In this document: in pieces, positions 31,329 through 60,382 of the stretch
How the letters are laid out: every line of letters begins with the position of its first letter
Position numbering within the stretch: position 1 is the stretch's first letter
Assembly: GCF_026151205.1 (NCBI RefSeq)
Contig: NC_087074.1
Location: forward strand, 3,410,001-3,474,000
Length of the DNA: 64,000 bases
Source of the DNA: Bolinopsis microptera
Lineage: Eukaryota > Ctenophora > Tentaculata > Lobata > Bolinopsidae
Direction: 5' to 3'
Made by a program: the position numbers and the translations under genes
The notes under the pieces: generated by a model
The model's input: the letters and a program-made list of their open reading frames with translations, nothing else
What the model was told of the DNA's origin: nothing
The model's database searches: none

Positions 31329-33376
31329 CTAAAAATCAACGTCCTCTACTCCAAGTTGTGAGTTGAGCTTAAGGTTAACTCTAATTTGCTGGCTGCTTGC
31401 TTCCTGTCCGGGACCTGACTGTCCAGCAAGATGTGGCTTGTCTGTGTAATCAGGCTCAAATCCCACTTCCTCAACAAACTGTGATTTGTGTTCTGATGAT
31501 ATTCCGTAACTTGGACTATGAAACTCAGAGCTGATGAAATAACTCGCAATGTAGTTCATGGTGAGTACCGCCGAACTGAACGTTACCAAGACTCCGGCCA
31601 GTACAAATAGTCCAATGTTTCTTAGACCTAAAAATATTTAAATGGTAACCCATTAAATACCAGTTAAATACCATAAATCTTACAGACCTTTGCGGTAGAT
31701 TTGTTTCTATACCTTTTATCTAACTGTACTCAAAACTTACGGTCTATTTTCTTGTCGATATTGTCAACTATTGGAATACAAGAGGGGACAGTCGAGTTCC
31801 AATTTCCAGTATCTAAACAGGTCATGAGGGGAGATGTGGAGAGATAGGAAAGGTAGGGACCCTGACAACTAAAAGTGAGAGTGTACCCCACTTCCAAAGA
31901 GTCTGTTTTGTAGGTCGACGGAACTATCGTGGAGTTGGCTTCTTGGACAGAGGGGCAACTTTCTGGAGAAGCCTCTAGGAAGGGTAAAAATATTTCAAAT
32001 TATGAATTCATCCACAGCTTAACATCAACTACCCCTGGTTAGGCTTTACCACATTTTGACTCATTTACTGAACATTTAATTGTAAAAATACCTGTATCGC
32101 ACTCCGCACCTGTCCAGCCAGGTTTACACTCCTTGCTCCCGTCCTCCTGGTTACATGTGTACTTGTCCGTCTCCGCACAGTGGAAACAGTTTGAAACTTC
32201 CTCGTCCATATTGTCAGGTGTTAGAGGTTTTCTGTAGTATTCAGGTGCACACTCAATCTGGAAATGTTATTTTGAGACCACTGTTGAAGAATGAAGATGA
32301 TAGATAATGGTTTATGAAACTTTATTTTTCTTTATTTGTTTCTTTGCACGACCGTATTGTGCTTACCTATCTTTAGTGATGGTAATCTTCAGAATGCTTT
32401 ACATGTTATGACATCAACATATTCTATAGGGAACTTAGATAATTTTGAAGATCATGATTTGTACGTACAGAAGTGGTTAAGTTAATAGAGGAGTGCTCAT
32501 CAGTGAGAGTAATAGTTACTGGACCCCATGTGTCGAATGTCCGCTTGTACATTAACCGGGCCATCATTACTCTGTCTCCGTTCGTCCTCCTGTGCCAAAC
32601 GTCTAGTAAGAGTAGTAGCTCGCTTATTCCCTACCGGAATTCAAAAGTTGGACTTTAAAGTTAAGACCATTCGAATTTGGATGCAAAATAAAATTGCAAC
32701 AATTTCCTTTACTTTTCAGAAATTAGATTGTAAATTTCTTATCAACTAGATCCTTAGATCATAAAATGCACAAAAATAATACTCTTTCAATGATATAACC
32801 TCCACGTTCTTTAGTTGTATAGCTATAGTCAGTTTTACTAACCTTTGTAACCGTTTGTTCCACCTCTGTTCCAGGAAAAGGATTGGGTATGGTTGAACCG
32901 TCTTGTATTGTTATCGTATCCGTGAAAATTATGTTGTCCTCGTTTACTGGGGGCGTCTCAAAGCTGTGATATACAGTATTTCGTTTACCAAAATAAGTCA
33001 CATTTAATAAAATTGGATTGGGCAACGAAGTTAAAAATGTTGTGAGAGCACGTTAAACCCAGTAGCTATTACATGCTGAACCATATCTACAGTTTTGAGT
33101 TTTTGTAAATTGTATTAATAATTTCTTAGCTTACGTAAAACTGATTGGTTTGATAAGTTTGAACTCAAATTCCATGTCACAAGGGGTCGCGTCCGGGTTG
33201 CAAAGTTGGTCGTCTTGAGCTTTAGAGTTGTCTTCGTTGGTGTACTTATTTAACTTCACTGTAACGAGGGTGTGGCCTCTGGCCGCAGAGAAAATAGCCA
33301 TTATTATTAAGAGATAGAGTTGAAGTTGGCTTAGTGAGGTTAAACGGGGGTAACATCTAAGCTGACGAATTTCCAT
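31329..33376 (-). CDS. DSL-sushi type I membrane protein A, 6 exons, about 407 aa
   Basis: Likely cell-surface signalling protein of Notch-ligand type; receptor not known. Exons are 33376-33135, 32963-32843, 32630-32469, 32257-32092, 31974-31741 and 31627-31329, with phases 2,0,0,1,1 all matching. Signal peptide about 1-34; N-terminal MNNL-like region to 175; DSL domain with six Cys at 178, 199, 202, 210, 219, 228, where the C1-C2 gap is stretched to 20 residues against 7 in its paralogues; one sushi domain (about 237-302, with MTC and GNWNSTVPSC); TM about 312-334; a 73-residue tail ending VEDVDF. Signal peptide and first MNNL part share one exon, as in the + strand paralogue at 55 kb. Start codon chosen because a good signal peptide follows it. 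Domain calls are mine from cysteine spacing. Confidence 0.82.
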
Positions 33377-34108
33377 TGAGCTTTAGATAGGCTGAAGAGT
33401 AGTCGATTTAGACCAAGAGTACGCGGTAACAGATCCAAACTGACCTCTCATGGACTCACAAAACTAAAAAAAGCAAAGTACTCCTCCACAGGACATATCC
33501 TTCGTCACGAAAGTAGAACAGTCCAACGGCTCAGACAAAGATGAATGCTAAGCTTAAAGAGCGAGACGTGATTCCCGGTCATTCCGATAGTATTTTTAGC
33601 GCCCGAAATTAGATTTAGGTGTTATTAAGTGTCTCTGGGTTTCTCGAGGTGGCCTGGATTACTCCCCACACGGGTAGGCCTCAACTGAATATTACCGGAG
33701 TGATATTTGTTCAGGGAGATCGGTACACAGTTATACACAGGTAATAAGTTAATGATGCCATACTATTACTTTATTCGTGAGACAACTGAATAACTCAAAT
33801 ACTATTCTCGATAAGACAAATAACTTTCATTCTATTGTTCACTTTTAGTATTATAGATTATGGTCACGTTTTCTAAAACATCTGTCAAAGGACTAAAAAT
33901 GATTTATCTAAATCTACACGATCACAATATGATAAATTAACATAGGATAAGATTCTTACTAAGAATACAAATACGTCTACAAAATAATATCAATAATAAG
34001 TTAAAGAAAATACAATTTACTGTTCTTCATAGCTATTTCTAAATCTATTGCTCCTATATCAATTCCATTTGCTATAATATTGATGTATCAAATTAAATAC
34101 ATTATTAT
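33377..34108. other. Spacer between DSL-sushi genes A and B
   Basis: Holds the upstream region of gene A and the 3' UTR of gene B. No TATA box or other clear element noticed. Confidence 0.4.
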
Positions 34109-37100
34109 CTAAAAATCATAATCAAATTCGTCGTGCACAAACCCCTGATTGAAATAACCATCATTTTTAACCGCTGATACATCGGACTCAGTATCTACAT
34201 GTCCTATACCTGTACTTTGTGTCGTACTTCTTTTCTCATTTCCATAAAGTTTCTCTTTAGAACTTGGTGAAATCTTCATTTTCTCCTTCTGTCTCTTGTG
34301 TGCAAAACAGTAGACAGTAATAAATGTGAAGAATGCCAGAAGTGTTATCCCAGCCACAAATAGTGCACTGTTCCCGAGTCTTCGTTCCAGATTATCTTCA
34401 ATTATTTCTGTTTCATTTTCTCCTAAGAGTAAGGGTATATATTAGTTCGCATATATACGGATACTTATAATATAATAGAAAATTTGAACCGAATTTTCAT
34501 AAGCAGCCTTAACTCCAAAAAATTCTCCACAACTACTTTTTGAAAAGAAATATTTGTCTGATAATTTCTAAATTTCCGGTAATTACCCGTTGCAATGCAA
34601 TCTATGAAACGTCTGGCCCCCTCCCGAACAGCCTCTCCAGAATAGTCCCTCCAAACCCCATCCTCATCACACTCCAGACCCTGGTACCTAACCAGAGGTA
34701 CGTAGTGAGGGGCACAGTGCGGGGTAGGTGCTGAACCGTTACCTGGCTCCGCACACGCGTTCAGGGAGCTGTATGTTAGTGATCCGTGTGTTGGTTCTTT
34801 TAACTTAGCACAGCTCTTACACGCATCTTCACCTGTTGTTAGAGGGGTTTAACGAGGGTTTGTGTGATTGTTAACAGCAGTTTCTAGTGTAGTGATAACT
34901 GAGCTGCTTCAACTATTCTCTCAGTGTAAACTTATGGCCTATCAGCAAGAGAAGTCAGAAGCTAACATATAAAGTAGTATCATGTTTCTGACATACTAGC
35001 ATATGTATCTTAAAATCAGATTAGCAGTGTACGTTTAAAGGTGCATTCTAAAACTTACGGCAGGTGGGAAGGTTGCAGCCCCAGGTCCCATCCTCCTGAC
35101 AAGTGATATTCAGATAACCCGCCCCAATAGAACTGGCATCCTGCCAAAGACTGAATCCTGAGTCACATGACAGTCTGACGGTTTCACCAGGGGAACTGTC
35201 TTCTGTGCTGCTGGACAGGAGGTGGAGGGAGTTTACTGTTGGACATCCTGAAATTATAAATTGTAATCTTAAGCTTTGGCCAGTTAAAGTTTCAAATGTA
35301 GCATTTGCAACATAAGCAATCTTTGAACACAACGCATAATCTAGCACCTTAATTAAATATAAGATCTTACATAGCAAATTGAGTCAGGTATTTGATCTTA
35401 CTCTTAATCTCAGTGCAAATGTTAGAGAAGTTATTGAAACTCCACCCCCCGTCACCCCCACATGTCAGCGAGTTACCCAGCACCTCCGTGTTCAGCTCAT
35501 ACTCCGGGTCACACTCGACAGTGACGGTGTCTCCCTCGTAATATGTTACTTGTGGCGTACTGGTCACTCTACCGTCCGTTATCACTAGTCCCGACGTACA
35601 TGTTACTTCTGGAAAGTTGAATCCTTTTATCAATTATCATTCCATTTGGATATCAACGAATGATCTTTAATCATTTGAAAAGCTATAACGTTCAAGGTTA
35701 GATTAACACGAGATCCTTGATTTTAAACTGCTCTGATCGTCGAATACCATTCCTCTAAGAATATAGTAACTGTTTTGTAATCATCTGAATATTAGTAACT
35801 GTTGTCCAAGTGCCACTTACTTTTGGTACAGACGTTAGTAAAATCCTGGTAGCTCCATTGTCCTGTACCCTCACAAGTTAACACGTTGCTCTGCAGTTGA
35901 GAGTTGAGCTTATACTCTGGATCACACTCTATTGTAATCGTCTCCCCCACTGAGTAGATTGCTTGCGGAGAACTGGTGACTGTTCCCCCCGTCATGTCCA
36001 GATCAGACGTGCAGGTTCCTGCGGTTATGCATTATCTAACTTTTGTAGGTCCCAAATCAGGTAAGAAAAAGTGTTTTTTTTTTTCTTCAGTATGACATGT
36101 GTTACCAGGATGAAGAATTAGAACATTTATACTTTGCGTACACTTACTTGTAAGACAGTCGTCCCCGGTCCAACCCCCCAGACAAACTGGATCTCCAGTG
36201 ACAGGATCACAAGTGAAGTGTCCCAAGTTATCATCTTGTTCTACACAGAATACACTGCAGTCAAAGTAATAGTTCTCTTCACATATCACCTGTTAAATGT
36301 CAAGTTATTGTTAAAATGCCCATAGCCTCCTTAGACTTCAATGCCCCGTATATGATGTTCATGCATCTAAGCCGAATTTATTGATGATACGGCCGGAAGA
36401 AGTTTAAATGTAACTGTGAGTTTTCAAGGAATCTTGATATGTTGATGGACATTTTAGTCGCTCACCTTAAAGCTCAAAGTCATGGTCAGAGAACCATCTG
36501 TCAAGGTTTTGTCGTAGATAACACCAGTTGTGACATCTTCTGTTAGCTCCAGTGTTGCCATGTTTATTTTACGGTTGTGTGAGTAGTCGTCAACTTCAAC
36601 TTTTACACTGAACTGCACCAACTTTTTCTGAAACAAACTTACGTGTATTTAAAGTAGCTTAGGTTATATTATACTACAAACTTAATGTTTTTCCTAGTTT
36701 GCACTCAATAGTCTTATGGTCCTGAGAAAATCAATTTCTAAAATTATGGAACCTGGGAGGGAGCAGAAATGCTGACTGGGTTATTGAACTCAGTTCCAGG
36801 TTTATCATTTAAAGCTCCAGCTCCAGTTTGATCCAATGTTAAATCACCTTGTAGTTTGATATTGTCTGTTTTATAACTGAAACGATAAAACTCAATATCT
36901 ACAGAATCCTATCGCTTTTAAGTTTAATACAGTAACAGAATCCAGTAAAAAATTTGTTAAATGGCTTTTCTAAATATGGAACTTAATCAAATTATTTAAA
37001 AAAATCTAGACAGACTCACCGGTGCAAATCAGGTTCTAGGAATTCAACTTTTATTTTGATGTCACAGAGACTGTCCTTGCAAGTAGATCCATCAGATAGT

Positions 37101-37376
37101 TTACTGTCTGGGGTTGAAAGTGTCTGGAAGACGACCTCTACCTGGCCTAATCCTGCAATCTAGTTGGAATTATGATTAGAACTTTCTCCACAATCACCCA
37201 TTAGATTAGAAAAATATAATGATCTTTGCTGCTTTAAGCATTACAAAACGTCGGCGAATGTTCTGATTTACCGTCTTGGATTGTAGAATCTATTTTACCT
37301 GAGAAATGAGACATTGAATGAGGAATATATAGAAAAACTTGAAGGATCGAACTCTCGACTCTCGTTTCTGCATCAT
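34109..37376 (-). CDS. DSL-sushi type I membrane protein B, 10 exons, about 599 aa
   Basis: Exons are 37376-37299 (signal peptide, 26 codons), 37159-37020, 36876-36753, 36627-36466 (MNNL-like), 36289-36148 (DSL), 36018-35821, 35608-35402, 35247-35059, 34832-34587 (four sushi-type modules) and 34422-34109 (TM and tail). Every junction is in phase. The DSL cysteines 171, 179, 183, 195, 204, 213 have the spacing of Delta/Jagged (C-x7-C-x3-C-x11-C-x8-C-x8-C), with CSVFC and GHFTC, both typical of true DSL domains. The fourth sushi module is atypical, with extra cysteines. TM about 514-536; tail ends NQGFVHDEFDYDF. EGF repeats, always present in canonical Notch ligands, are absent. Confidence 0.88.
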
Positions 37377-39900: not shown

Positions 39901-42900
39901 TTAAAATTCGTAATCAAATCCATTGCCTGTAAATCCGTGATTGACATAAGCAGCTGTTGGTATCAGTCCGTTGTTATTCTTAACGACAGGGAAATTTTGT
40001 GTACTCTGTACATTTCCAATTGCAGTAGATGTAAGTGTTCTCATTTGTCTTATCGCATCCTCTGGCACATAACTCTTCCTTCTTGGAGACACTTTCCTCT
40101 TCTCTTCTCGCTTCCGATACAGAAAACAGTAGAGGAAGATGATGCCGAAGAAACTAAACAAGGTCATAGCGGCGATTATCATTGTGCTTCTGGCTAATCT
40201 TTTTTTCAGCGCATCCTCACTCACGTTGATGTCAGAATCGCCTGCGATATATTTTGTAAAACCAACCTATTATGCAACTACAATTATAATTGTCAACATG
40301 AAACATCCAAGGAGCAAGCACTGATCAATATTGGTAATTTAGCTGAATATGTTTCGGAACATTGTTTCAACAAGATAACTTAAAATATCACAGGAGAACC
40401 TCTCTACGAGTAACATGTCACCTGTGGGGATGCAGTCGATGAGGAGTTTACCCCCCTTCTTCTCGACACGCTGACCAGCTGAGTTAACCCATTCCTTGTC
40501 CTGACCACACTTTAGTCCCTGATACCTCACCAGAGATGTGTAGTGAGGGTAACAGGCAACACTGACAGTTGAGTTGATGTTAGCGTTCAGGCAGTGGTTC
40601 ACGGAGAGGTAGGTTAGTTTGCCGTGTTTTGGTTCTCTTAGTCGGCTGCACCCTCCACACCCACCTGAGGGGTGTTATAATAGTTTCATAAAGAAGTGTT
40701 AAGTGCTCAGTTTTATAAGTACTGAGACTGAAGAGTGGGGGGGGGGGTGAAAATAGAACCTTTATGTCCTAATTCTTCTCTCTGATAAATTATGAGTATG
40801 TAGATTGTAGATGACGTCAGCGATTAAAATGAAATTATTGACATCACCCACACACTTATCGGTACTGAAGTATCGCTAACATTTTAATTAACACTTCAAA
40901 TTTTTGTCGTTAGTTGCGTGGCGACATATAATTTAAGAATATACTTAAGCATTCTGCAGGACCCCTTCCCACCTTTATCCTCAGTACTGTTAATCTATTA
41001 AAATCCACCCGAATGTCCGTTACCAAATATTAATAATACACATTCATTGTTTTAAATAAGTAGGAAGATTTGAGAATATCAACTCACAAACAAAATATTG
41101 ATCATTGAACGTAAGTCTCCAAGATCTCCACTAGATCTTGATATTTTCTGCCACTTATTCATTCCTTAATCTGATTACCCCTTCAAATTAAGTATACTCA
41201 GGAAACTGATAGGAAATAAGGGCCCTTAATTCACAGTATCAGACACAGGGACACGCGGTATCCAGATAACCCTCCTAAATCTTATGGTAATCTTCTGTGT
41301 GACCTTGAGAGCAGCCAGTGTGATTGGAGAATGGGTGTTCAATCTGTTCATTATGACGTTGCTAGGTGAAATGTCATTATAATGTTACGTTAGATATGGG
41401 AAGATTGAGGATGGCACAAAATCCATTGATCTAGGAACGGAGAAGGCAAAACAATCACTAAGAACAATTGTCCACATGGTCATGAGATACTGTCCTGCTG
41501 AGTGCTGAGTCTGCCGACTTTGAATTCTCTAACCTTATGTTAAAAAGGTAAACTAGTAAAAGGACGTTTAAAACTAAAAAGTTTTAACAATGGGCTTGGT
41601 TTAATCTAAAATAATAAAACACTGGAGCAGGCTGAGTGTGGTCTTATTCTCAGCCGTTAAAAACATGTTTAACGTTTGGCTGTTACTCGCCAATATGTTT
41701 TAACTCTTGTTATCCGCTCAAAGTTTACCTACTTTTGGTGCATATCTTTGCAAAGTCGACGAAGCTCCAATTTCCGTCTGCCTCGCAAGTCAGCACATTA
41801 CTTTGTAGATGAGGATTTAGCTGGTAATCCTCATCACACTCAATCTCAATCGTATCGTTCTCTTGGTAGATTGCTTGCGGAGTACTGGTGACTTTCCCTC
41901 CCGTGATATCAGGATTAGCCGTGCATGTTCCTGGGAGTTTAGAACTGAAACCTCGTCAGAGTGATTAATAACTGAACCAAAAACCTGTCATAATTATAAG
42001 TATCAGTCTTGAAGTTTTATCATTATGTCGCAGATTGCAGGAGTGAGTTATATTATACAGGCCTAATAATGCCTATAATGCATGTGGCCCCCTAGTTATG
42101 TTTTCCCCACTAATTACTTGTAAGACAGTCGTCCCCGGTCCAACCCTCCAGACAAACTGGATCTCCAGTGACAGGATCACAAGTGAAGTGTCCCAAGTTA
42201 TCATCTTGTTCTACACAGAATACACTGCAGTCAAAGTAATAGTTCTCTTCACATATCACCTGGAAAGGAGCAGGAAAATTAAAAATTCTGCGTGTCATTT
42301 AGATCGAGGTCGAAATGATAACTTTGAGGTAGTTTAAAACAGTGGAAATAGAGTTTACCTTGAAACTAAGTGTTAGATTTACAGAACCCTCCATTAATGT
42401 TCTGTTGTAGATAACACCAGTTGTTACATTTTCTGTTAGCTCCAGTGTTGCCATGTTTATTCTACGGGAGTTTGAGTAGTCATCAAGTTGTATCTCGACA
42501 CTAAACTGCGTTACTTTGTCCTGCAACGAACTTGCATTTATTTCAAGTAGTATAGGTTATATTTTGCTATGATTAAGAATTTATTGCCCTCTATTTTGCG
42601 TTCTTTAGTTGTTATTTGCTATTTCCTTAGAGTATACTATCTATACATTAATTAAATTATTTTACTTGAGATGGAGCAGTAACGTTGATTGGGTTATCAA
42701 ACTCAGTTCCAGGACTATCATTTAGAGCTCCTGCTCCTGTCTGAGGCAGCGTTTGAGCACCTTGCAGATCGAATTTGTCGGTTTTATATCTGAAATAATA
42801 CAAATCAATATCCCGGAAATTACAATAACACATTCATTCCTTCAAATTAAAATGAATGGTCTGCAGCAACAGCATTCAATAAAGCAACAAAACTACGAAA

Positions 42901-43403
42901 TTGAGGTGGAAGATTATATTTTGGTTATTCTTAGGATTAAAATTTGAATTTGATCCGACTCACGAATTCACATTAGGCTTCCTGAATATAACTTTCATTT
43001 TTATTTGACAAGTCCCATCTCTGCACGTAAAACCGCCAGATAGCTTACTGTCAGAAGTAGACAAAGTTTGAAAAACAGCCTCCACTTGTCCCAAACACGT
43101 TCCCTGGGTAATTTTGATTTATTTTTCAAATTCGTGTGATTCTGGTTTATCATTTGAAAAATAGATCTGTATCAGAAAACTTGTCCAAGAGGCCACATAT
43201 TTAATTCTTATATTATGGTCGCATATTATAATATTCTATGATAATTTATAAATTATCAAAGAATATTATAATATGCAACCATGATATAAGAATTAAAGAT
43301 AAGACTACCCAAGAGATTACATTACCTGATTGATAAGACTACTCAGGAAAAGAAGGTTGTATAATAGCTTTTTAGATTGCAGATCGAACTGTTCTCCTCG
43401 CAT
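39901..43403 (-). CDS. DSL-sushi type I membrane protein C, 8 exons, about 475 aa
   Basis: Exons are 43403-43326 (signal peptide), 43103-42964, 42789-42666, 42520-42359, 42259-42118 (DSL), 41930-41733 (sushi 1), 40664-40422 (atypical sushi) and 40241-39901 (TM and tail). The first five exons have exactly the same lengths as in gene B (78, 140, 124, 162, 142), showing tandem duplication. The second and third sushi exons of gene B have no counterpart here, and phase still agrees across the gap (A+GT). The DSL exon differs from that of gene B by one base (Gly to Glu before WTG). TM about 382-404; tail ends NHGFTGNGFDYEF. An unusual donor CAA|GTAAAA ends exon 3. Confidence 0.88.
43201..43296. repeat. 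96-bp imperfect palindrome in intron 1 of gene C
   Basis: Arms of about 47 bp (ttaattcttatattatggtc ... and its complement ending aagaattaa) meet at ataatttataaattat. A short MITE or foldback remnant. Confidence 0.8.
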
Positions 43404-46993: not shown

Positions 46994-47049
46994 TCACTGG
47001 TTCAGTTGGGTATAGAAATGGGCCATAACTCGTGCTGGCTGGTGGTATG

Positions 47050-47590: not shown

Positions 47591-47854
47591 TTTACTGGTA
47601 TTGTTACAGGACACAGTCTCAGGCACACTTATTGTAATCTTTAACGTACTTTTGGGATCATTGTGTTTCCTCCACTCTTCTTGCCAGCTTCCAACTTCAA
47701 GGGAAACTGCATGAGGAATCTTGCGGAGTGGATACTGGATATGAACCAACTTTCGACCAAATTCAAATCATGGTTTCGAGATCAGATTCTTTTTGTGCTC
47801 AAACAACGAAGGTAATTTCTGGGAATTTCAAATTTGTATTTTTGATGAGCATTA
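47591..47854. other. Short unassigned spacer
   Basis: Nothing recognised between the minisatellite and the foldback element. Confidence 0.4.
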
Positions 47855-49640
47855 CCTTATCGGTCATAATTATATCAGGGACATTATTTTCACGCTGAAT
47901 ACCTTAGCGTGAATAATTATGTCCGTGAATATAATGTCTGTAGCATTAAGGGGAGATACACCAAAAACGTTTTTGCTCCGAACATCGATTTTATTTTATA
48001 TTACGGTTCAATAGACAAAAAGAATAAGATTGCACACCTTCAAAATTTTCTAAAAATATTCCCTCATCGAGAAAAAAAATATTTTTCTTTTTCGAAAATT
48101 TTTAAAATTTGGAGAAGTCTGTCACTGTAATACCGATAGTTCAGCCATTTTAAAAGTTTTTTGGCTGTTTTTTTTTTACTGAACATTACTTACACTCCGT
48201 ACAAGACAACCCTTTAAAATATTATATAATTAAACAATAAATGACCAAGTTACAGACCGAACAAGTAGAAAAAAGAAAAATTGGGATTTTTGCCTACCAC
48301 CAAAGTGTACATTTTACCACTCGCCCAGGTCATCAGATATCGCTTCAAAAATTCTTGTGAGTGTAGCTGATGATCATATCAAACTTTTTGGAACAGGATT
48401 TTGCTCAGTTTTGAGTTTTAAGGTATGAAATGTGGCCTTAAACGACTTAGTAAAATTCATCGTAAAAAAGGGCCAAACATGGCAGATTTAAGGCTTAAAA
48501 TGCCTATAACTCAAAAAGTATCAGTTTTTTTTGAAATAATTTTTACAGAATCGTAATCAGCTTGAGAAGACGAATCTTTTAGTACCAAATAGGTGATTTT
48601 AGAAGACAAATTGTCTTAAATAATTTTCCAGCTCGAACACAAGGGTTGTACAAATTGTACACATTTTTTTAAAAATTTTGTGTCTTGAACTATTATAAAT
48701 TTGGTACTAAAAGATCTGTCTTACCAAGCTGATAACGATCCTGTAAAAATTATTTCAAAAAAACTGATACTTTTTGAGTTATAGACATTTTAAGCCTTAA
48801 ATCTGCCATGTTTGGCCCTTTTTTACGATGAATTTTACTAAGTCGTTTAGGCTACATTTCATAGCTTAAAACTCAAAATTGAGAAAAATCCGGTTCCAAA
48901 AAGCTTTCCATGATCATCAACTACACTCACAAGAATTTTTAAAGCGATATCTGATGACCTGGGCGAGTGGTAAAATGTACAACTTTGGTGGTAGGCAAAA
49001 ATCCCAATTTTTCTTTTTTCACCTTGTTCGGTCTGTAACTTGGTCATTTATTCTTCAATTATATAATTCTTTCAATAGCTTCTAGTACGGAGTGTAAGTA
49101 ATGTTCAGTAAAAAAATCAGCCAAAAAACTTTTTAAATGGCCGAACTATCGGTATTACAGTGACAGACTTCTCCAAATTTTAAAAATTTTCGAAAAAGAA
49201 AAATATATTTTTTCTCGATGAGGGAATATTTTTAAAAATTTTTGAAGGTGTACAATCTTATTCTTTTTGTCTATTTAAAAATAATATAAAATAAAATCGA
49301 TGTTCGGAGCAAAAACGGTTTTGGTGTATCTCCCCTTAAGGTCCGTGAATAATAAATTTCGGTAATTATTTCCATTAATTTTTGTGTGTGTGTCCCTATA
49401 TAAATATATATGCGTAGATATGTGTGTAGCCGATTACTATATTAGCTTATTAGTATACTAGGACAAATATGATCACTCCTCAGTCACATTCTAGAGTTCA
49501 GAAAAAAGAGTAAAACACTTTGACTTATTAAAAAATCACCAATTTTTTGGAAATTTTTGGGCGTGCATGAGCGTAAATAATTATGTCCGTGAAAAATTTA
49601 GTCCGTGAAAATATGTCCGTGACAATTATGTCCGATAAGG
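47855..49640. mobile_element. 1.79-kb foldback element with TA target duplication
   Basis: Outer inverted ends start ccttatcggtcataatta and finish taattgtccgataagg-like on the other strand (about 40 bp, imperfect), with TA on both outer sides (47853-47854 and 49641-49642), the Tc1/mariner-type signature. Inside, arms of nearly 700 bp from 47948 (aaggggagatacaccaaaa) and 49338 fold back onto a small centre near 48640-48660. No transposase frame is visible, so it is non-autonomous. The motif ttatgtccgtgaa recurs several times next to both ends. Confidence 0.85.
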
Positions 49641-51608
49641 TAGTAAAACGTTACAATGTAACTTAACAACATTTGGAAACCGACACGAATAACAGATTAT
49701 GAGTCTAGAAATAATATAAAATATTGTTGCGAAATGTGCATGAGGTCAAAAGTGTTAAACTTTTTATCTTTTACTGCACAGCATAAATCTTTGAATTTAA
49801 TATGGAGTAATTCATTAATCAGGTTATAAAACATTAACAACCTAATGTTTCGTAACTAGCTAAAATTCGATTTCTCCCGTCCTGCTACCCAGAAGTAATT
49901 CTCTGAGAAGAAGTTAGTAATATGGCAATAGTTTGTTAATCTCGTTATTGAGTTACTGGGCACGGCCGGGGCACCGTGAGACCTGATTATCCCAAATTCA
50001 GGGAATTACTCAGACGGCAAAGGTTACAAATGTAAATACAAATATTAAGCTCTAAGTAACTCTGCTGTGTACTCGATTTTATTTTATTCCAAAATGAGCA
50101 TTTGATTGGTCATGTGACATCTATCTTGATAGGACTATTTTCACGCTTTGAGCTCCAAATTTCGAAATTAATATTCATAGCTACAATATTCAAACTCCAC
50201 ATATAAAAAATGTATCACATAAAATATTCCTGCAAAGTCCTGGTCACCGTTATAATCGTATTAAAAATGGTTTCTTCACAGAATTATGTAACTTTCCCGG
50301 TTGACTGACTTAGAACTTCTACTTTCCACTCCATCGAATAACAGGAAAGCAGCCGCGATAAAAAACCTCTAACTGTTTAGCTTCACTAAATTTCAGAAGG
50401 ATCACGACGGTTTACAACCGATTATGTTTCTTAGAAACACAAGGGGCCTTGTTGGTAGAACAAGGATTTAGTTTGTAAGTACCGCATGTGGAATTGGAAG
50501 GGTGGGCGGAATTGGGGAGCCATCAACTGAAATTGATTGCACTGAAATTGTCATCAAGCTAATGTATTTCTCAGTGCGCTCTGCATCTACATTTGTCCTT
50601 CCAGTATTTATGTCCTATGGAATAAAACAGCACACTTATGATCAGAGCATATTTGAAATTGCAATAAATAACAATAATGTTTCATTCGAATTCGTCCAAA
50701 TCGAAGCATTCATTAAACATTTATCCGTTATTTTAGTCTTCTAAACGATAAAAGCATTATACTTTATAGCGAACTTTTATATTTTCACTGGTCATGTTAG
50801 TCGTTGTCCAGAAAATTTATTCTGTCCTGAGTTCTGGGTGATTATCCCTGAAATCCTCCGGTACTAAGGAAACCCCTTTTAATTTGTGAAATTGTAATGC
50901 CGAAATGGATCCTTTTCATATAAAACATGGGATGTCTGGCTCCATTACCACTTAAATCCAATTCTCCACAGTACTATTTCTAGGGTTTCACCTCATACCA
51001 ATGAACGTGGCGTTGTAGAGAGATCTTTAGCCTCTTTCGCTCCCTTTTCCCTGTGAATAATCCTTACATTTAGCATATACCGATATCTGTTCAGACTCAG
51101 TGCTGTTTATTTCCCTTTCCGGTGCCACCTGATCAGCAAGCTCCAGGAACTGACTAGGACTGAGTAACCACCTACTTAGTCATCTGGCACTCTTTCAAGC
51201 CAGGGAGTCGAGAGTTAGTGTCATGATGATTCGAAATAGTAATACCATTTAGGTCGTTTAAATAAAGTTGAGCATGTGCCAAGTATGTTTCTTTTCACTC
51301 GTGATCCATGGTAATGTTTATTTTGAGCGTGAATCACCATCTAGCGTTCACCAATACCACCATATTGCCACGGTAACGTTATTAACCCATTGTTCCACTC
51401 CGGGTTTGTAATCCACTATATATAGACTTGTGTCGTTTTGCGCCACTCTAGAGTTGTGGTTAATAAAATGCAGAAGTACGTCTCAAAGTTACCTCCCGTT
51501 ATATTGTTATTTCGACAATTGTTCAGTCTGTGACATCAGTCACCATGATCCATAGTCTGACCAAGTTGGTTTGAATTGCGATCGTATTCGTAAAAGCTGA
51601 TGATGTTT
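49641..51608. other. No gene recognised
   Basis: AT-rich, with one 80-codon open frame (50502-50744) that lacks support. The right end is the likely 3' UTR of the four-TM gene. Confidence 0.4.
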
Positions 51609-53826
51609 CTACTTGACAAGCTTGGTGCTCTGTTCCTTGAGCTGTTCGAAGGTATCCCCCGTCTCTAGACCACTGTACTTAGCACTCACCTCCTCTCCGG
51701 CTCCACTTATCAGAGCATTGCTGATCTCAGCTAGTGAAGTGGAACTCTTGATCTGCACCAGCAACACCAGCAACTGAAATTTTATAGTTGTCAAGGGCTC
51801 AGCTGTGCAGGTGTCATTTTATACAAAAGTGTTTCTCGTTACACGAAATGTTATAGTGGTCTAAGTCTATATTCTAATCGTGATGTTTAGCTATGCACTC
51901 GCTATAACAACAACAACAACAACAACAACTCGCTATAACTTATCGCAGACTTCATAACACTCAGCATTATTTATTTGTTTATTTTGTGCATACCTGCATG
52001 AAGAGGAAAGCAATAGTCATCAGGCAAACCATAGAGGTAACCATCATGAGTCCCTTCAGAACCCCAATCTTATTCCTACAGTAACTGAGAGAAACAGTGT
52101 CCACTGTCACTCTGTTAATTTCTGTAGACTTCATCATCCCGCCCATCAGACAGACACATTCCATCTCCGTTTTCTTCAACGGGTCTGGCATTATCTGACA
52201 GCTTTGGGACTCAAAATACCTGAGAAGAGGGTTGTAACCATGAGCCATAAGGTATTATGAAGAGGGTTGTAACCATGAGCCATTAGGTATTACCATGAGG
52301 TACCTATTTAATTATGTATCCGGGGTAACTGGTATGCACCTTTACCGATTGTTGAAATTCGACATCTAGTGATCTAGCATCATTTAGCGTCATCTAGCGT
52401 CATCTAGCATCATCTAGCGTCATCTAGCATCATTTAGCGTCATATAGCGTCATCTAGCGTGAAATGACGCTAGATGACGCTAGATCACTAGATGTCGAAT
52501 TTTAACAATCGGTTAAGATCCACTGGTATTTGGTTACTTCTGTCTCTGAGCAACCCGACTGAGCTTACAATGACATGAATTGTTTCTTATCACTTCTCAT
52601 TTTTGACATGTTATCGGTGACCTATCGGCTACATTGTGGTCAGCGTGATAATGCAGATGTTAAATACTAACTTACTGGGAACCGAAAGCGGTGGTGAACG
52701 CCCCAAAAGCGCAAGTAACCATGGTTACAAGCAGTATAAGGAGGACACAAACCAATCTGAACTTAGATCTGTTGTTGTGTAGCGCGATTGTAAACACGCT
52801 GGAGGAGAGCAGGAATATCCCCGCCCAGACTGAAGGGGAGGTTCTTGATTAGGAGTTGTTCGTTAGTATTAGGAATAGTCGATCGCGGCTTTTGTGAACA
52901 TTGTTCTGTAACTTTATAAGATGTTGTGGTTGTTAAACCAAGATAGTATAAGATTTTGATAGCTTTATAACCAACGACTCAACTAGTCATGATTGTTGCA
53001 TGATCAAAGCCTACTGACATCAAAGCATATCGACTTTTTGCCTAAGCCGTATGCTCATAACATTTAGACCTTGTTACTTCTTCGGAAAAATGAACACATA
53101 TTTCCGTTCGGTGCTTCAACTGTGCAGAAATCAGAATCTGCTGACATTTTGCAGAAACACTGTGATTAGCACTTGGTCATGAGTACTAATATTAAGTCAT
53201 ATACTGGCTTAGCAACAGAGATAATCTGAGACGTACTTAGCATCGTGCTAGATAAATATGGGTGTGACAGAGAGGGCCGCACGGAAATAAAATTCTGTAA
53301 ACATGAACAATGTTTAGCAGCCTAGAATCAGATATTATGCTGCAATTATTCCGATCGGGTGTATACTGTGAATTATTGCACCACTTTTGACTCCTATAAA
53401 TTTGACTCACTAATTTCACAGATTCATCAAAGTTGGGAAAGTTATGTGATCTTAATTGGTGCTAATGCAAAGACCGTATATGTCATTATAAAAAAGGCGA
53501 GGATGCTTGATAAGCGTGCGATGAGCTTCATTCTACTGTATCATTCTACTTATGGTGCATCTTATTCTCCCCTGAATACCTACTTGGTAGTTGGTCGTTA
53601 CAATTTTCCCAGAGTACCTACTTGACACACAGCACTTCTAAATGTACCTACTTGGAGTGAATATAGAAGGTATGCCATGAACTGCGGAGTGTTCCCGCAC
53701 GTAGTAAGTCAGCCCGATGATGTACAGCGCACCGCACCCACTTGTCAAGGTGCACAGTCTATACGCCAGAGTGTCCTGGTAACTGTTCGGAACTAACTTG
53801 GCAAAGTCTGAGTTTTGAGCAAACAT
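51609..53826 (-). CDS. Four-transmembrane protein, MS4A/CD20-like topology, 4 exons, about 239 aa
   Basis: Exons are 53826-53652, 52829-52676, 52219-51994 and 51773-51609, with matching phases (1, 2, 0). Helices about 24-43 (LTSGCGALYIIGLTYYV), 60-75 (WAGIFLLSSSVFTIAL), 83-105 and 160-190 (ending FLFMQLLVLLVQI). The order of short loops, then a large cysteine-bearing loop between TM3 and TM4, and the phrase PIWAGIFLLSSSVFTIA, match MS4A-type proteins (compare YPxWGGxxxIISGSL in that family). Start is the first ATG (gccATGt); an in-frame hydrophobic stretch precedes it without an ATG. MS4A proteins modulate surface receptors and calcium entry in vertebrates; no role is shown here. A tetraspanin is less likely, since no CCG motif is present. 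Confidence 0.68.
51906..51928. repeat. (CAA)n microsatellite
   Basis: Seven to eight caa repeats in intron 3 of the four-TM gene, flanked on both sides by ctcgctataac. Confidence 0.85.
52345..52512. mobile_element. 168-bp MITE with internal 10-bp repeats
   Basis: Terminal inverted repeats of 34 bp (ccgattgttgaaattcgaca onward) with TTA on both outer sides (52342-52344 and 52513-52515). The middle is filled by about nine copies of a decamer catctagcgt or a variant. Inserted in intron 2 of the four-TM gene. Confidence 0.85.
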
Positions 53827-55054
53827 GGCTGAAGTTAAGGTAAAATTAAAACAGGGTTTGACGATCAGGGTAAGAAACAAGAATGCAGATGCAGTTAAGA
53901 GCAAGCTGGTGTGTTGAGGAATTAAGAGCAAGGTGGTGTTGGGGAGTACACGGTCGTTTCCGGGAAGTCTCTAGCTGCATGTAGAACCACGTGATTAGGT
54001 AGTACATGCGTATAGACGAGAGGGTCATTAACATTCAGTATCAATCAAGAGGTGACAAAAATAGATAGCCAACAAAATAGGCGAAAGGATTTCTTATACT
54101 GTTAAGTATTATCGTCCCATATAATTATAGTATAGAGTTTACAAAAACTCTTACAACAAACAACAAACTCTTACAACATAATATAGAGTTTACAACAACA
54201 TAAAAAAACTATCAAGAAATTTTGATTGGCGCTGAGAGGATAGATCTTCAAGGGTACGGGATCTACACGAAAGTCCATTGTTCTTTAAGCTATTAAGTTA
54301 ACAACTATTTCAAGAATGTGTGTCCGTTTTGAGTATACCTAGTTGTGTATAATACACAACTAGGTACTATTACTATGTATATATATATATTATACTATTA
54401 CTATACTACTACTAACTATAAGACTGTTCTCATTCAATTCCTCAAGTCTCATCTTATCTGCAATATTTACACATAGGTGAAGTGTGAAGAGCATGGGATA
54501 GTTTAGATCCACGTGATCAGTGAGTACAGGCGTTTAGATGAGAGGATCAGGGAGAGTTGCAGATTATTTATTGGTTTTCTGCCCAAAATGCGGGCCGGAA
54601 AGATTTTCTCTTGATCTCTTCATTGTATTTTGAACTTCCTGATATTTATTGCCAAACTTAAACAATAACTTCAGCGTAATTGAATTTAATGTTAATGGTC
54701 GCAATTTCTCACGACCTCTGGAGAGTTTCTGCGTGATCATTGGGCCAGATACTATGTAACCCTGGTTTTTGTGATTTAAAGATAAGGTACGTGTAACTCG
54801 CATGTTTTAACCTAACGTCCTCGCCATTTATATCCCTCCTCTAAATTTGATTTGTGTTGTATTGAGTTCATGGTGTGTTATATTGATAACGATGGAGTGC
54901 GTAAGGAACATCAACATTTATCAATTTCTTTAATTAAATTCTACGACACTGACAGGATATAAGAATGAACATGCAGTTACGTTGACTCTATCGCTTTTGA
55001 TGATTACGTTACCACGCGCTTCAACATGCGGAAACTTGTACACTTTTGCTTGCG
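53827..55054. other. Region between divergent four-TM and DSL-sushi D genes
   Basis: The two genes face away from each other, so both promoters should lie here. Contains a 31-bp palindrome at 54336-54366 and a TA-rich run (54375-54395). No TATA box could be assigned with confidence. Confidence 0.45.
54336..54366. repeat. 31-bp perfect palindrome
   Basis: tacctagttgtgtat and its exact complement around a single central base. Could be a dimeric factor site or a transposon scar. Confidence 0.85.
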
Positions 55055-58000
55055 ATGACCTGCCTTTCGCTGCCTTCTCCCATCTTCTCTAACATTCTAC
55101 CACCCATCCTCCTACTGGTACTGACCTCTTCTATTCCTCCAATAGTTCAGAGTATCGCAAGAGTCAGCGTTACTCTTCACTCCTTCTCTAACCCTGAGAA
55201 TAAACTACTGGACGGTTCATATTGTAACAGTGATCAGTCGCCCTGTTTGCTTAAACTACTGGTTAAGTTTGATGCTCCTTTTGTTGAAAGGTTAGTTATT
55301 GTCTTCACAAGAAATTTCATTCTATCCAATAAAATCGGACCAATATTATTCAGGGTTGGAAATCAAAACAATCTACATAGCTGCCTTTCCGACCGGACGT
55401 AGCAGAAATTTCTAAATCCTGATATTCAATGACACGATGGGGGGAGCACTCGCCTTGCACCGGCTATCTCAGTTAAAATCGCTTTGTCGGTGTATATTAT
55501 GAGGCCTGTCACTGCGTGTACCCGCATTGAGGTGCAGTTAGGGTAGTTGGGGGTGCAACCTGCTTCATGTTATGTTTTGGTTGTATCCGCCAGGCCGTTC
55601 AAGCTCAACTTTGTAACGGTTAATCACTTAACTGGATTGTGTCTACAAATGTCAGCGTAGATCGTAATTAAGTAGGTCCTTACTTGATCCAACTTGCTTC
55701 CGTTGACTTTTCTAATGCATAAAATTGTAAAATATTTTATTACACTTTAAATTAATCGAATATCTTAATATGCCGTTCGAAGATTATTAATTACTTAAAA
55801 TTTTATTATTAAGTTAAAACCCGGTAATCAAGCTTTGTAAACAACAAATACCCTGAACCAGTCGAGTTACTACATTTACAAAGTCATTATCTCATAAATT
55901 TGAACCATATGAACGACAGAATTCTGCAGCCCTTGAAATGTTGAAAATCTTAAAATAAACTCTCCATCAGTTTTGTAACAAGCCAAGCGAAGTCGAGTGT
56001 GATAAATTTCCCGTTGGGAGATGATATTCTGACAAACGACCACAGACGTGTTCCTAATCCTTTCCCTGCTAATTCAACTGTCACTGATGTAAGCTTTTAG
56101 TTTTACAATGATATATTCAAATCTTTGAATTAATGATTTTAAACAGTTCCACTTTAAAAAGTTCCATTAAATGAATATAGAAGTCCCGCTATCGTCAAGT
56201 GCCAATATTAGTAACGCATGTGTTGGGTCTGTGAGCTTTTCCCTAAGCATTAACATTTCCTGACAGGCAATAAGACTGATAACATTCAGTGTACGAGCAT
56301 TCGACTTCTCATTCAACAGACAAGATGTCGCCAAGTTTTCCTTCAGCAACTTCGCACAGTTTGGAACTGAGACCTACATTTTAACCTCTGGATATTCACA
56401 GTTTAATTTAACAACCAATGTGGGTATCTTTTAACATTTGTAACATTTTCCTTCGCTCACTTTTTTATAATTAAATTGATGTTAAATTGATGTTAAATTG
56501 ATGTTAAATTGATGTTAAATTGATGTTAAATTGATGTTAAATTGATGTTAAATTGATGTTAAATTGATGTTAATGTAAAACAACCCTTACGCTTTAAATT
56601 TATTCTGCACACCGTTTCTTGTATTGACACATACATTATAAATATCTCCGGGATTTCGACGCGGGATCATATTATCACTCAGCCCGGCCCGCTGTTAGAT
56701 AAACATCTCAAGGTGATATCATCCCGCCCCGGAAATTTGTATAAACCCGGCCCGCTTTTTAGTCGTAACTGATGTTTATCATTCAATTCTCCGACTTACA
56801 ATAATCAATGATACTGCTGATTAGAACTCGATAATAGTAGAACAGTTAGACGCGCGATCACGTGGGCGCGTCACGTGCGTACCACGTGCCACCAATAGCA
56901 TACGCTGAGTCTATACCACGTGACACGAAAGCGCACCACGTGATATGAAACATCGTAACCGTCCACTTCTTTTACACGCAAATTCCTGGGAACGTTGCCA
57001 AAGCAGCTAATTCTTGGAATTTCTCCAACGCGTGGCGTGAGAAGTTGGCGACTAGCCAGCTACCCTTGTCCGTGCCCTAAAATAGTATTGTTTTGCTTGC
57101 TCTCCTTCCAGCTCTTGTTCCTGCTAACGTTCAAGCTATTGCTCCACTTACACTATGACAGATCGGTTTGACATTCAGATTCTAATGTATTTCTAAAGTA
57201 TAAATCCCTTGTCGAAATCGCCGGAGATAATTATAATCCATAAACACTTCACGCTCAGGGCTAAATAAATGTAATCCCTCAGCTGGCGCTTCGGGATTAC
57301 ATATTAACACAAAACTCGTGCGCTGCGCGCACTCGTATGTGTTTATCAGATCATCCCGCTAGCGCGGGATGATCTGTTATATAAACCCTTTGCGTGGCGG
57401 GTTTATGTTATTACAAACCTCACAGATAACATGTGAGACGGACTACTACGCTGACTGCTCAGTTCACTGCACCGAGACGGCCACATCTTCATGTAATGAA
57501 ACGGACGGCACTAAAGTCTGTAAACTTGGCTGGTCTGGCCCGGACTGCGATATTGGTTGGTGGAGTTTCAACTTCTGCATTGTTTCAGTCTGACTAAATT
57601 AGGTTAAGACATGTGACTGAAAACAATTGAGCCTTTAAACAATTAGATAATTTGCAGTCCTGTCGTGATTATGAAGACATTCTGAAGAGTGATTAAGTGG
57701 ATCGGTGTTAATTTGTGATTTCATGATATTTCTATGAAGAATTTTCTATGAAGACGGGAATGGCTTGATAAGAAACCCTGACTAATGAACTCGATACATT
57801 CTAGAGTTTAGCCCACTTCCACCGTAGTGTATGGTATATTGTATGCCGAACGTACTGTATTGCTTTATCGCTGAAAAATGATATCATATATTGAGTATTG
57901 ACACACAAGTACCTCTTTTTTTCGTTGGTTCTAAATAACTGCGATGAATGCTGTGAGACTTCCGGTTATTGCGGAAATGTTTTGTCTTCTACTCTTCATC

Positions 58001-60382
58001 CAAATATTGATAGGTAAACCTTGTTATTTTCCTTGCTGTCTTGTTGACTGTTTGAAATTAAACATCATAAAATGCAATGGTTTTGTAACGGGTGGGGACG
58101 GGTGGGTGGGGCTAAATTAATTTCACGCGTGACAGCGTTTTACCAACCTGCTTGCGTTAGCTAATTTTTGAAAATTGTGATTTGATTAATAATCAGTTCA
58201 TAATATGAGTATTGCTGAAAGCACAGTGTAAGGCCTATATATGATAATAATATATGTTATTAATCAAATCAAAATATAACTTTTTCAGAATACGCTGTCC
58301 CTTGTATGCCGAACACAAGTGCATTGCACGCCAGTTTTACTCCTAACAAAGTATCGTTCAACGAAAATAACGTTGTCACCGTAACCTGCGACCAAGGTTA
58401 CCAGCCTGCATTAACCAACCTGACTTGCTTGAAGACTGGGTCTTGGAATCCACACTGGCCTTACTGTCTGCAAATAGGTGAGTAAAATTCGCCCTGAATA
58501 AAATGTTTTGGTTTTTTATCGTTGGTATTCATTGCCCTCTGCACATAAACATTGGTCAACAATATCATTAATCAAGACTTTAACACTTTCAGAATGTCCT
58601 AAACTGTTGATTCCAAACGGAGATGTTACCCCGAACACTGTGATTCAAAACCCCTCTCCTATTGGGACTATTGCTAGCTTCACTTGCCTACCTGGTAACA
58701 CATTAACCGGTAACACAATCCTATCTTGTCAGAGTGACGGATCTTGGAATGGGACCGTTCCCGTCTGCAATGTTAACAGTAAGTATTTAGTAGAGTCGTC
58801 ATTTTCCTTGTTTTTCCTCAAACAAGCATTCCGAAATCGCTGAATTTAATCATATTCATTGTTCATCATGACGCCTATCATTTGATTTGAAAGCTCATTT
58901 TCTCCAACTTGTAGTGTGTCCAGACGTAAAAGGACCAGCATCAGGTGTGGGTTACTACTTAGCGAACCCTCCAGCCCGACATCCAGGAAACGTCTTCAAA
59001 CAAAGCTGTGGTCGGTCTTACGTAGGACGAGGCCCAGAAGAGAGGTTGTGTCAAAACAACGGGACATGGAGTGGTACTGCCATCTCTTGTCATCGCAGTA
59101 AGTTTGCAAGTTCCTCAGCTACCAAGTTACTGATTAGACTAGTTTATGAGTAGTTTATGATTAGACTAGTTGATGTCTCGACAGGTTTACTGTAAAGAAA
59201 AACAGTCAATGCAATTATGATGGCGTCTTTAAGATCAGTTCGAAGTTATGATCAGCTCACACCAGGTATTTTGAGATTCCTACAGCAATAACAATGCCAT
59301 TATTAAAAATGCCACATTCCAAACATCCTAGAGTGTTCAAAGTTTGACGACATGAACGGAAGGGTGGTGTACTCTACAGGAACACCATCAGAGGACACCA
59401 CTGCTACGTTTAGTTGTGATGAAGGCAGCAGCCTAGTGGGCGAGAGAACTGCTCGTTGTCTTGCTGATGGAATATGGAATATCACTGATGCTCCTAAATG
59501 TGTTCCAAGTAAGCTAGCAGCTTTATTTACTATGATAAACATATTACAGTGTTCAACTGGCTTTGGAACATTCTGAACATTCTGAAATCCGAATATTGCT
59601 CAATGTGTAAAAGTAAATAATGACTGTGGAAAGTTTGCGGTTTATTTACGTCAAACCACGCTTAGGTTGCAGTTTAGAATATGGTATTGATGGAAATGTT
59701 ACAGTATCTCCGTCGACCTACAAAACAGACTCTCTGGAAGTGGGGTACACTCTCACTTTTAGTTGTCAGGGTCCCTACCTTTCCTATCTCTCCACATCTC
59801 CCCTCATGACCTGTTTAGATACCGGAAATTGGAACTCGACTGTCCCCTCTTGTATTCCAATAGTTGACAATATCGACAGGAAAATAGACCGTAAGTTTTC
59901 CGATGCCAGAATATTATAGTAGATTCGTAGCATTAGTAGATTAGCAGCATTTTTCTGGAGAATAAATCAAATATTATCTTGAAATAAATTGTTTGCCACA
60001 TAAGGGTGACTACTATTATAAAGTATAAAGGAAAGTGTATAGCATAATATGAACATTAATTACAGGTCTCCTGATCTCTGGCCTTTCAGTCTTGTCCGGA
60101 GTACTAGCTGCCTTCGCTGTCATCATCTTCATCCTGTTCTACGTCAACAAGAAGGTTCTAGATAGAACCAGACAAATTCCCGACCAAGGATCACATAGCC
60201 GTCAATCTCAACGCTCGATTAGATTGAACCAAATTTCAATATCACAATCAGAAGGACCCCGAATAAATCCGAGAAAGTGCAGTGGACAAATGACATTTGG
60301 TTCAAATATGGCCAACAGTCGGAACACAAATAGAGTTTCCGTTGTAGGAATAACCAATCAGGCGTTTGTTGACGATTTTTGA
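55055..60382 (+). CDS. DSL-sushi type I membrane protein D, 10 exons, about 637 aa
   Basis: Exons are 55055-55290 (signal peptide plus MNNL start), 55971-56088, 56267-56419 (MNNL-like), 57426-57555 (DSL), 58289-58477, 58593-58778, 58915-59097, 59332-59508, 59666-59890 (five sushi domains) and 60066-60382 (TM about 534-559 and tail). All phases agree. DSL cysteines are 172, 180, 184, 192, 201, 210 (CSVHC, GWSGPDC). The order matches genes A-C on the other strand; gene A is the closest relative in exon plan. The tail ends TNQAFVDDF. The last sushi exon is almost identical in DNA to that of gene A, 28 kb away. Exon 2 could also start 12 bases later. A second signal-peptide exon at 57944 may give a shorter product or mean that two genes are joined here. 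Confidence 0.8.
56471..56571. repeat. 11-bp tandem repeat (ttgatgttaaa), about nine copies
   Basis: Perfect direct repeats in intron 3 of gene D, 50 bp after the exon 3 donor. Confidence 0.9.
56859..56942. promoter_or_regulatory. Cluster of five CACGTG E-boxes with a CCAAT box
   Basis: CACGTG at 56859, 56872, 56883, 56917 and 56937, with CCAAT at about 56892. The densest such cluster in the window; it lies 1 kb before the alternative signal-peptide exon, so it could be the promoter of the short form. Confidence 0.5.
57265..57412. repeat. Run of four consecutive short hairpins
   Basis: Inverted pairs in a row: tgtaatccc/gggattaca; aacaca..ctcgtgcgc/gcgcactcgtatgtgtt; cagatcatcccgc/gcgggatgatctg (13 bp, perfect); ataaaccc/gggtttat. 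The last ends 13 bases before the DSL exon acceptor of gene D. Related words (cggcccgct, atcatcccg, ataaaccc) occur at 56660-56765. Confidence 0.75.
57944..58013 (+). CDS. Alternative signal-peptide exon of gene D
   Basis: ATG followed by 23 codons (MNAVRLPVIAEMFCLLLFIQ, then ILI), with a hydrophobic core and donor ATAG|GTAAAC, ending in phase 1. This is the phase needed to join the first sushi exon at 58289. Use of this exon would make a secretory-pathway protein of about 448 aa with five sushi domains, TM and the same tail, without the MNNL and DSL parts. It may instead be the true first exon of a separate sushi gene. Confidence 0.6.

Follow-up and report, generated by a model that had tools for sequence, protein, structure and literature searches.

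A cluster of four genes (A, B, C and D) in the 64-kb window, the whole stretch of DNA analysed here, encodes what appear to be type I membrane proteins in which a head made of a C2/MNNL-like and a DSL domain is carried on a sushi stalk. The best explanation, to which we give even chances, is that these are real type I proteins with ligand-type heads, and that at least B and C most likely serve as cell-bound ligands for the Notch receptor of the genome. The cluster occupies 31329..60382, with A, B and C on the minus strand and D on the plus strand; these limits, given in the original prediction, are right, as the stop codons of A (31329) and D (60382) lie at the two ends. All four gene models, read from the window sequence, are open and have GT-AG introns (the GT donor of C exon 3 was read by eye). 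They share one layout: a hydrophobic stretch at the N-terminus is followed by a domain of some 140 residues and a single DSL, and then come the sushi domains, of which A to D have 1, 4, 2 and 5 respectively, and a single TM helix.

31329..33376, minus: gene A, 6 exons, 407 aa (SP-C2-DSL-1 sushi-TM)
33135..33376, minus: A exon 1, predicted signal and C2-like part 1
32843..32963, minus: A exon 2, C2-like part 2
32469..32630, minus: A exon 3, C2-like part 3
32092..32257, minus: A exon 4, DSL with 7-residue loop (20.2 bits, under cut-off)
31741..31974, minus: A exon 5, sushi (98.4% identity with D exon 9 over 191 bp)
31329..31627, minus: A exon 6, TM and tail (hydropathy)
34109..37373, minus: gene B, 10 exons, 598 aa (SP-C2-DSL-4 sushi-TM)
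37299..37373, minus: B exon 1, predicted signal
37020..37159, minus: B exon 2, C2-like part 1
36753..36876, minus: B exon 3, C2-like part 2
36466..36627, minus: B exon 4, C2-like part 3
36148..36289, minus: B exon 5, DSL (43.6 bits; 141/142 nt same as C exon 5)
35821..36018, minus: B exon 6, sushi 1 (Pfam)
35402..35608, minus: B exon 7, sushi 2 (Pfam)
35059..35247, minus: B exon 8, sushi 3 (Pfam)
34587..34832, minus: B exon 9, sushi-like 4 (homologous to C exon 7)
34109..34422, minus: B exon 10, TM and tail (hydropathy)
39901..43403, minus: gene C, 8 exons, 475 aa (SP-C2-DSL-2 sushi-TM)
43326..43403, minus: C exon 1, predicted signal, weakly hydrophobic
42964..43103, minus: C exon 2, C2-like part 1
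42666..42789, minus: C exon 3, C2-like part 2
42359..42520, minus: C exon 4, C2-like part 3
42118..42259, minus: C exon 5, DSL (48.9 bits)
41733..41930, minus: C exon 6, sushi 1 (Pfam)
40422..40664, minus: C exon 7, sushi 2 (Pfam)
39901..40241, minus: C exon 8, TM and tail (hydropathy)
55055..60382, plus: gene D, 10 exons, 637 aa (SP-C2-DSL-5 sushi-TM)
55055..55290, plus: D exon 1, predicted signal and C2-like part 1
55971..56088, plus: D exon 2, C2-like part 2
56267..56419, plus: D exon 3, C2-like part 3
57426..57555, plus: D exon 4, DSL with 7-residue loop (16.8 bits, under cut-off; weak donor GTTGGT)
57944..58013, plus: putative alternative first exon of a sushi-only D form (ATG, hydrophobic stretch, ends in phase 1)
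58289..58477, plus: D exon 5, sushi 1 (Pfam)
58593..58778, plus: D exon 6, sushi 2 (Pfam)
58915..59097, plus: D exon 7, sushi 3 (Pfam)
59332..59508, plus: D exon 8, sushi 4 (Pfam)
59666..59890, plus: D exon 9, sushi 5 (Pfam)
60066..60382, plus: D exon 10, TM and tail (hydropathy)

Across the C2-like and DSL domains, the exon ends fall in phases 2, 0, 0 and 1 in all four genes, although identity to B over the N-terminal part is only 27% for A and 28% for D. On this genomic reading A to D are real, related genes. For these models, read from genomic sequence, an artefact of gene modelling or assembly is very improbable, as it would have to produce the same phases in four diverged paralogues, a purifying pattern in B and C, and matches to curated Pfam domains. 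Four complete models with matching phases had been predicted; the open frames, splice sites and phases bear this out, whereas the model of D is less certain to be complete, since a putative ATG exon (57944-58013) lies between its DSL and sushi exons. D may be two transcripts. A division into two transcription units, one for a secreted C2-DSL protein and one, with its start at 57944, for a membrane protein with sushi domains only, would account for the hydrophobic stretch and fitting phase of that exon, and for the weak donor (GTTGGT) that follows the DSL exon, where read-through meets a stop 12 codons on. We nevertheless think it rather improbable, since the DSL-to-sushi joint is in phase 1 as in A, B and C, and the last sushi exon of D is nearly identical to that of A, in which the DSL adjoins the sushi exon.

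By sequence comparison, B and C carry true DSL domains. Both have the exact spacing C-x7-C-x3-C-x11-C-x8-C-x8-C and exceed the curated Pfam cut-off of 24.2 bits (B 43.6 bits, E 3.6e-11; C 48.9 bits, E 8.1e-13). A (20.2 bits, E 7.2e-4) and D (16.8 bits, E 8.7e-3) retain the six cysteines yet score below it, so that the Pfam check proposed for the DSL domain in all four succeeded for B and C and fell short for A and D. The Notch-binding loop of the DSL is 7 residues long in A and D, versus 11 in B and C. Measured against the DSL of human DLL1, B and C match at 23/42 residues and DLL4 at 21/43, so that B and C are no more distant from DLL1 than DLL4 is. When the MNNL-DSL part of human DLL1 was compared with the 265-Mb genome, C (E 4.5e-7) and B (E 1.6e-6) ranked first and second of 34 matches, and all 11 PDB sequences matched by protein C at E < 1e-5 were Delta or Jagged/Serrate chains. 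Five Notch-binding residues of Jagged1 are named in PMC3415683 (F199, R201, R203, D205 and F207). In the alignment, F199 and D205 are conserved in B and C, F207 is Leu, and R201 and R203 are replaced; these replacements, and the missing part of the loop in A and D, speak against a ligand role. DSL domains also occur in proteins that are not known as Notch ligands, according to excerpts of PMC4810162 and PMC6040629.

The domain of about 140 residues in front of the DSL is probably the C2/MNNL domain of the ligands, as judged from weak profile scores. The Pfam MNNL family matched neither proteins A to D nor anything else in the 265-Mb genome. A profile of the four proteins aligns with Drosophila Delta in a single stretch from the C2 start to the DSL end (profile 42-217, E 7e-10), with the DSL supplying most of the score. 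Compared alone with six known MNNL sequences (hhalign, profile against profile), the C2-like domain scored 19.65, a value reached by 0 of 200 column shuffles (maximum 18.2) and 0 of 51 reversed and rotated controls (maximum 13.0), at an hhalign probability of 2%. A first run with four MNNL sequences gave 19.97, and at least 1 of 200 column shuffles scored higher (maximum 21.3); a set of 66 rotated controls, of which one half were reversed and the other half kept the forward match, had a local maximum of 19.6, which is a tie, and matched the global score in 23 cases. The claim of a domain in the place of MNNL thus has modest profile support, set against the lack of a Pfam match and some controls that score as high. 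The corresponding exons of B and C evolve under constraint, to judge from their divergence (dS 1.25, dN 0.23).

As predicted, sushi domains stand where EGF repeats would be expected. Pfam Sushi (PF00084) is over its cut-off in all four proteins (A 1, C 2, D 5, and 3 stretches in B, where three of the four sushi-like exons pass), in line with the forecast numbers, and no EGF family of Pfam is over cut-off in proteins A to D. The absence of the EGF repeats of canonical ligands is an observation against a ligand role. By hydropathy, each protein has a hydrophobic stretch at its N-terminus and a single TM close to the other end, as the forecast signal peptide and single TM would have it, except that the stretch is weak in C (10-residue maximum 1.61, and no 19-residue window over 1.6). 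It is fair to say that EGF-based searches would miss such a class, but a DSL HMM readily detects B and C.

Single exons are nearly identical between paralogues. The DSL exons of B and C agree at 141 of 142 nt, probably by gene conversion on the strength of that match, and together with the sushi tract shared by A exon 5 and D exon 9 (98.4% identity over 191 bp) this exon-wise near-identity is suggestive of conversion. Sushi domains are common in recognition and adhesion proteins of immune, allorecognition and scavenger type. A to D may be cell-surface proteins of this kind that kept an old C2-DSL head after its Notch role was gone. The variable sushi number, the exon-wise near-identity, the shortened loop in A and D and the two changed arginines in B and C would all suit such proteins; however, the DLL1-like DSL domains of B and C, the order of the head domains, as in ligands, and the constraint on the B/C C2-like exons do not, and we regard this as a doubtful alternative.

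Elsewhere in the genome, a Notch-like locus on C9 contains ORFs over cut-off for two LNR, one EGF and one ankyrin domain, and no Delta with an EGF stalk was seen among the loci read. In three loci read (L007, L013 and L014) a C2-like head is combined with tandem DSL repeats, so that the cluster is not the sole ligand candidate; other candidates in the same genome are a further point against a ligand role for A to D. The heads of these three proteins scored 23.6 against the C2-like domain of A to D (47 controls, maximum 17.8; hhalign probability 1.9% and 9.6%). The L013 head is modelled as C2 at low confidence (pLDDT 50), and the five best structure matches of the model are Jagged C2-DSL chains. 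Sushi is thus, as read from the genome, one of two kinds of stalk. It is possible, if unlikely, that the role of working Notch ligand falls to the tandem-DSL proteins, built of a C2-like head, DSL repeats and a TM, or to L001, with A to D a derived side branch. Of 214 DSL candidates in the genome, 150 hits were scored, and 129 of these have another hit within 1 kb, as expected of tandem repeats, with 14 DSL stretches in L007; this clustering and the L013 model favour such proteins, as does L001, whose DSL has the top score among the scored hits (53.4 bits) and retains R203, and which shares phase 0 and phase 1 exon ends (by eye). On the other hand, human DLL1 ranks C and B ahead of them all, and the loops of the DSL repeats read in L007, L008, L010, L012-L014 and L017 are shorter, mostly 7-8 residues by eye. 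These tandem-DSL proteins, the short loop of A and D, the two-transcript reading of D and the probable conversion of the B/C DSL exon go beyond what had been observed earlier.

Under the preferred explanation, that B and C are Notch ligands, their head would bind Notch on a neighbouring cell, the sushi stalk would keep the head away from the membrane, and a short tail with lysine would permit endocytic pulling. With their shortened DSL loop, A and D would more likely be modulators, for instance in cis, or binders of something else.

Like Delta, Delta-like 1 and 4 and Jagged/Serrate, A to D are predicted type I membrane proteins with a short tail and an N-terminal domain at the MNNL/C2 position, and B and C have a six-cysteine DSL with a DDxxGH loop. 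Unlike them, A to D have sushi in place of EGF repeats and lack a Pfam MNNL match, R201 and R203 are changed in B and C, and the loop is shortened in A and D. DSL proteins without EGF repeats also occur in other non-bilaterians. In an excerpt of Gazave et al. 2009 (PMC2770060), Nematostella has DSL-only and MNLL + 3 DSL genes, which resemble the tandem-DSL genes found here, and an excerpt of PMC5684314 describes an Amphimedon protein with DSL and a predicted MNLL and no EGF motifs, likewise a ligand head without an EGF stalk; neither excerpt mentions sushi. C. elegans DSL-1 is a DSL ligand with a reduced EGF part but, in contrast to A to D, is secreted and retains one EGF repeat, with sushi absent from the excerpt (PMC3415683). 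Drosophila Uif is a large membrane protein of Notch regulation, and the phrases 'sushi domain' and 'DSL domain' are each matched once in the excerpt of PMC3340373; by its title it is an EGF-repeat protein and a Notch antagonist, unlike A to D.

The presence of photoprotein genes identifies the animal as a ctenophore. Ctenophores have Notch, and a definitive Delta has not been found in them according to excerpts of PMC4335385 and PMC8166818, in agreement with the earlier remark that their Notch ligand is unsettled. B and C are concrete candidates, and a ligand-like head on a different stalk may help to explain why Notch-activating signals have proved elusive in comb jellies. We tentatively propose, at somewhat less than even chances, that the ctenophore Notch ligand is a C2-DSL head with an interchangeable stalk, sushi here and DSL repeats elsewhere in the genome. 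If so, EGF repeats would be dispensable for a Notch ligand, and would either have been lost or replaced in ctenophores or have been added to the head in other animals. Should ctenophores be the sister group of the other animals, the signal to which their Notch responds would bear on the beginnings of the pathway, and the cluster raises the question whether a ligand needs the EGF stalk with which it is usually described.

The original prediction of four gene models with matching phases was borne out; all four were rebuilt from sequence.

Rebuilt DSL-sushi genes (window coordinates)
Gene A: 33376 to 31329, minus strand, six exons
Gene B: 37373 to 34109, minus strand, ten exons
Gene C: 43403 to 39901, minus strand, eight exons
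Gene D: 55055 to 60382, plus strand, ten exons

Internal joints of the models are GT-AG. Exon ends of the C2 plus DSL part carry phases 2, 0, 0, 1 in each gene; for the sushi exons the end phase is always 1. As head identity to B is only 27% (A) and 28% (D), the phases common to all four are good evidence for real gene models.

By eye, the window also contains a gene for a multi-helix membrane protein between C and D (51600-53970, minus), a large inverted repeat with arms of ~0.65 kb, possibly a mobile element (47930-49330), reverse-transcriptase-like ORFs with a YIDD motif (29729-30550, minus) and an ORF like a rhodopsin-type GPCR (1875-2555, plus). Near-identical photoprotein frames lie in tandem at 5364-17375, spaced ~1,030 bp apart; one is broken near 8927, and a different stretch lies in between. 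Berovin and Mnemiopsin 1 were both matched by the one frame tested, the latter at E 9.9e-128 across 205 residues, which identifies the animal as a ctenophore.

In Pfam searches, the predicted DSL domain exceeded the cut-off of 24.2 bits in two proteins (B, 43.6 bits; C, 48.9 bits) and fell below it in the other two (A, 20.2 bits; D, 16.8 bits). The sushi domains passed the cut-off in all four proteins, and MNNL was matched in none of them. When protein C was compared with the Protein Data Bank, the top eleven sequences were Delta or Jagged/Serrate (E 9.1e-12 to 2.3e-6), followed by complement sushi proteins. A profile of the four heads gave a single alignment with Drosophila Delta from C2 through the end of DSL (E 7e-10), its score coming mostly from DSL. 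Counted residue by residue, B and DLL1 agree at 23/42 positions of the DSL domain, and DLL4 and DLL1 at 21/43. Since neither EGF repeats nor a Pfam MNNL domain was found, the A-D proteins are, on their sequences, not canonical Delta or Jagged.

The Notch-binding face of Jagged1 comprises F199, R201, R203, D205 and F207, according to the part of PMC3415683 consulted. At these positions B and C have Phe, Val, Gln, Asp and Leu: two residues are kept, one change is conservative and both arginines are lost. In A and D the same loop has 7 residues instead of 11. The C-terminal four residues resemble PDZ ligands, as a resemblance only; the same excerpt places PDZ ligands in some vertebrate ligands too.

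C-terminal four residues
A: DVDF
B: DYDF
C: DYEF
D: VDDF

Two pairs of paralogues share near-identical, exon-sized tracts.

Near-identical tracts (window coordinates)
B/C: 36144-36292 and 42114-42262
A/D: 31732-31922 and 59709-59899, inverted orientation, 28 kb apart

B and C agree at 141/142 positions of the DSL exon, compared with 61-77% identity in exons 2, 3, 4 and 6, and their C2 exons differ mostly at synonymous sites (dS 1.25, dN 0.23). Zero synonymous changes in the DSL exon, with dS above 1 on both sides, argue for gene conversion and not constraint alone. The A sushi exon and the last sushi exon of D share a 191-bp tract at 98.4% identity (88% over the whole exon). Judging from these patterns, both pairs are likely products of gene conversion.

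Other proteins compete as candidates for the same ligand job. The genome (264,652,675 bases, 232 contigs) yielded 214 DSL candidates, of which 150 were scored, all with E <= 1; L001 ranked first (53.4 bits), then C and B.

DSL loci elsewhere in the genome
C3:8854857-8854991: L001, top-scoring DSL exon among the 150
C7:6458974-6462096: L007, tandem-DSL protein, long open frame
C2:7703-7710k: L013 and L014, tandem-DSL proteins, long open frames
C11: L008, tandem-DSL protein, long open frame

At L001, an upstream exon resembles the third C2 exon and, judged by eye, the phases at the DSL exon match those of the cluster; a long CTC-rich repeat follows, and no stalk was identifiable at the locus. 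A neighbouring hit lies <1 kb away for 129/150 scored hits, as tandem-DSL frames would produce. L007 has 14 DSL stretches across 800 residues, a C2-like head was read in L007, L013 and L014, and at the end of one L014 frame are a TM stretch and a repetitive tail with tyrosines. DSL-only genes are known in Nematostella (PMC2770060, in part). Human DLL1 MNNL-DSL gave 34 genome matches with C and B on top, and Pfam MNNL gave zero across the genome. No EGF-stalk Delta occurred among the genome hits read, a subset from a search that does not bridge introns.

For two ctenophores, the portion of PMC8166818 consulted reports Notch, presenilin and Su(H) but not Delta or Jagged; that of PMC4810162 cites a Pleurobrachia Delta, with Mnemiopsis lacking diagnostic domains. 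The 'Delta-like proteins' of earlier papers may be some of these tandem-DSL proteins. No DSL-sushi protein appeared among the literature matches listed, and A-D are DSL proteins on a stalk that those matches do not describe.

A Notch-type locus lies on assembly sequence C9, where ORFs on one strand encode, in order, EGF, two LNR and ankyrin hits, all over cut-off. The other LNR locus, on assembly sequence C2, appears GlcNAc-phosphotransferase-like by eye. For A-D the observations comprise a parts list, and the steps of a mechanism are borrowed from knowledge of Delta and Jagged. By that analogy, the head would bind Notch of a neighbouring cell, the sushi stalk would act as its spacer, and the tail, which has 3-8 lysines in A-D, would be ubiquitylated and endocytosed, pulling the receptor open; A and D would serve as modifiers.
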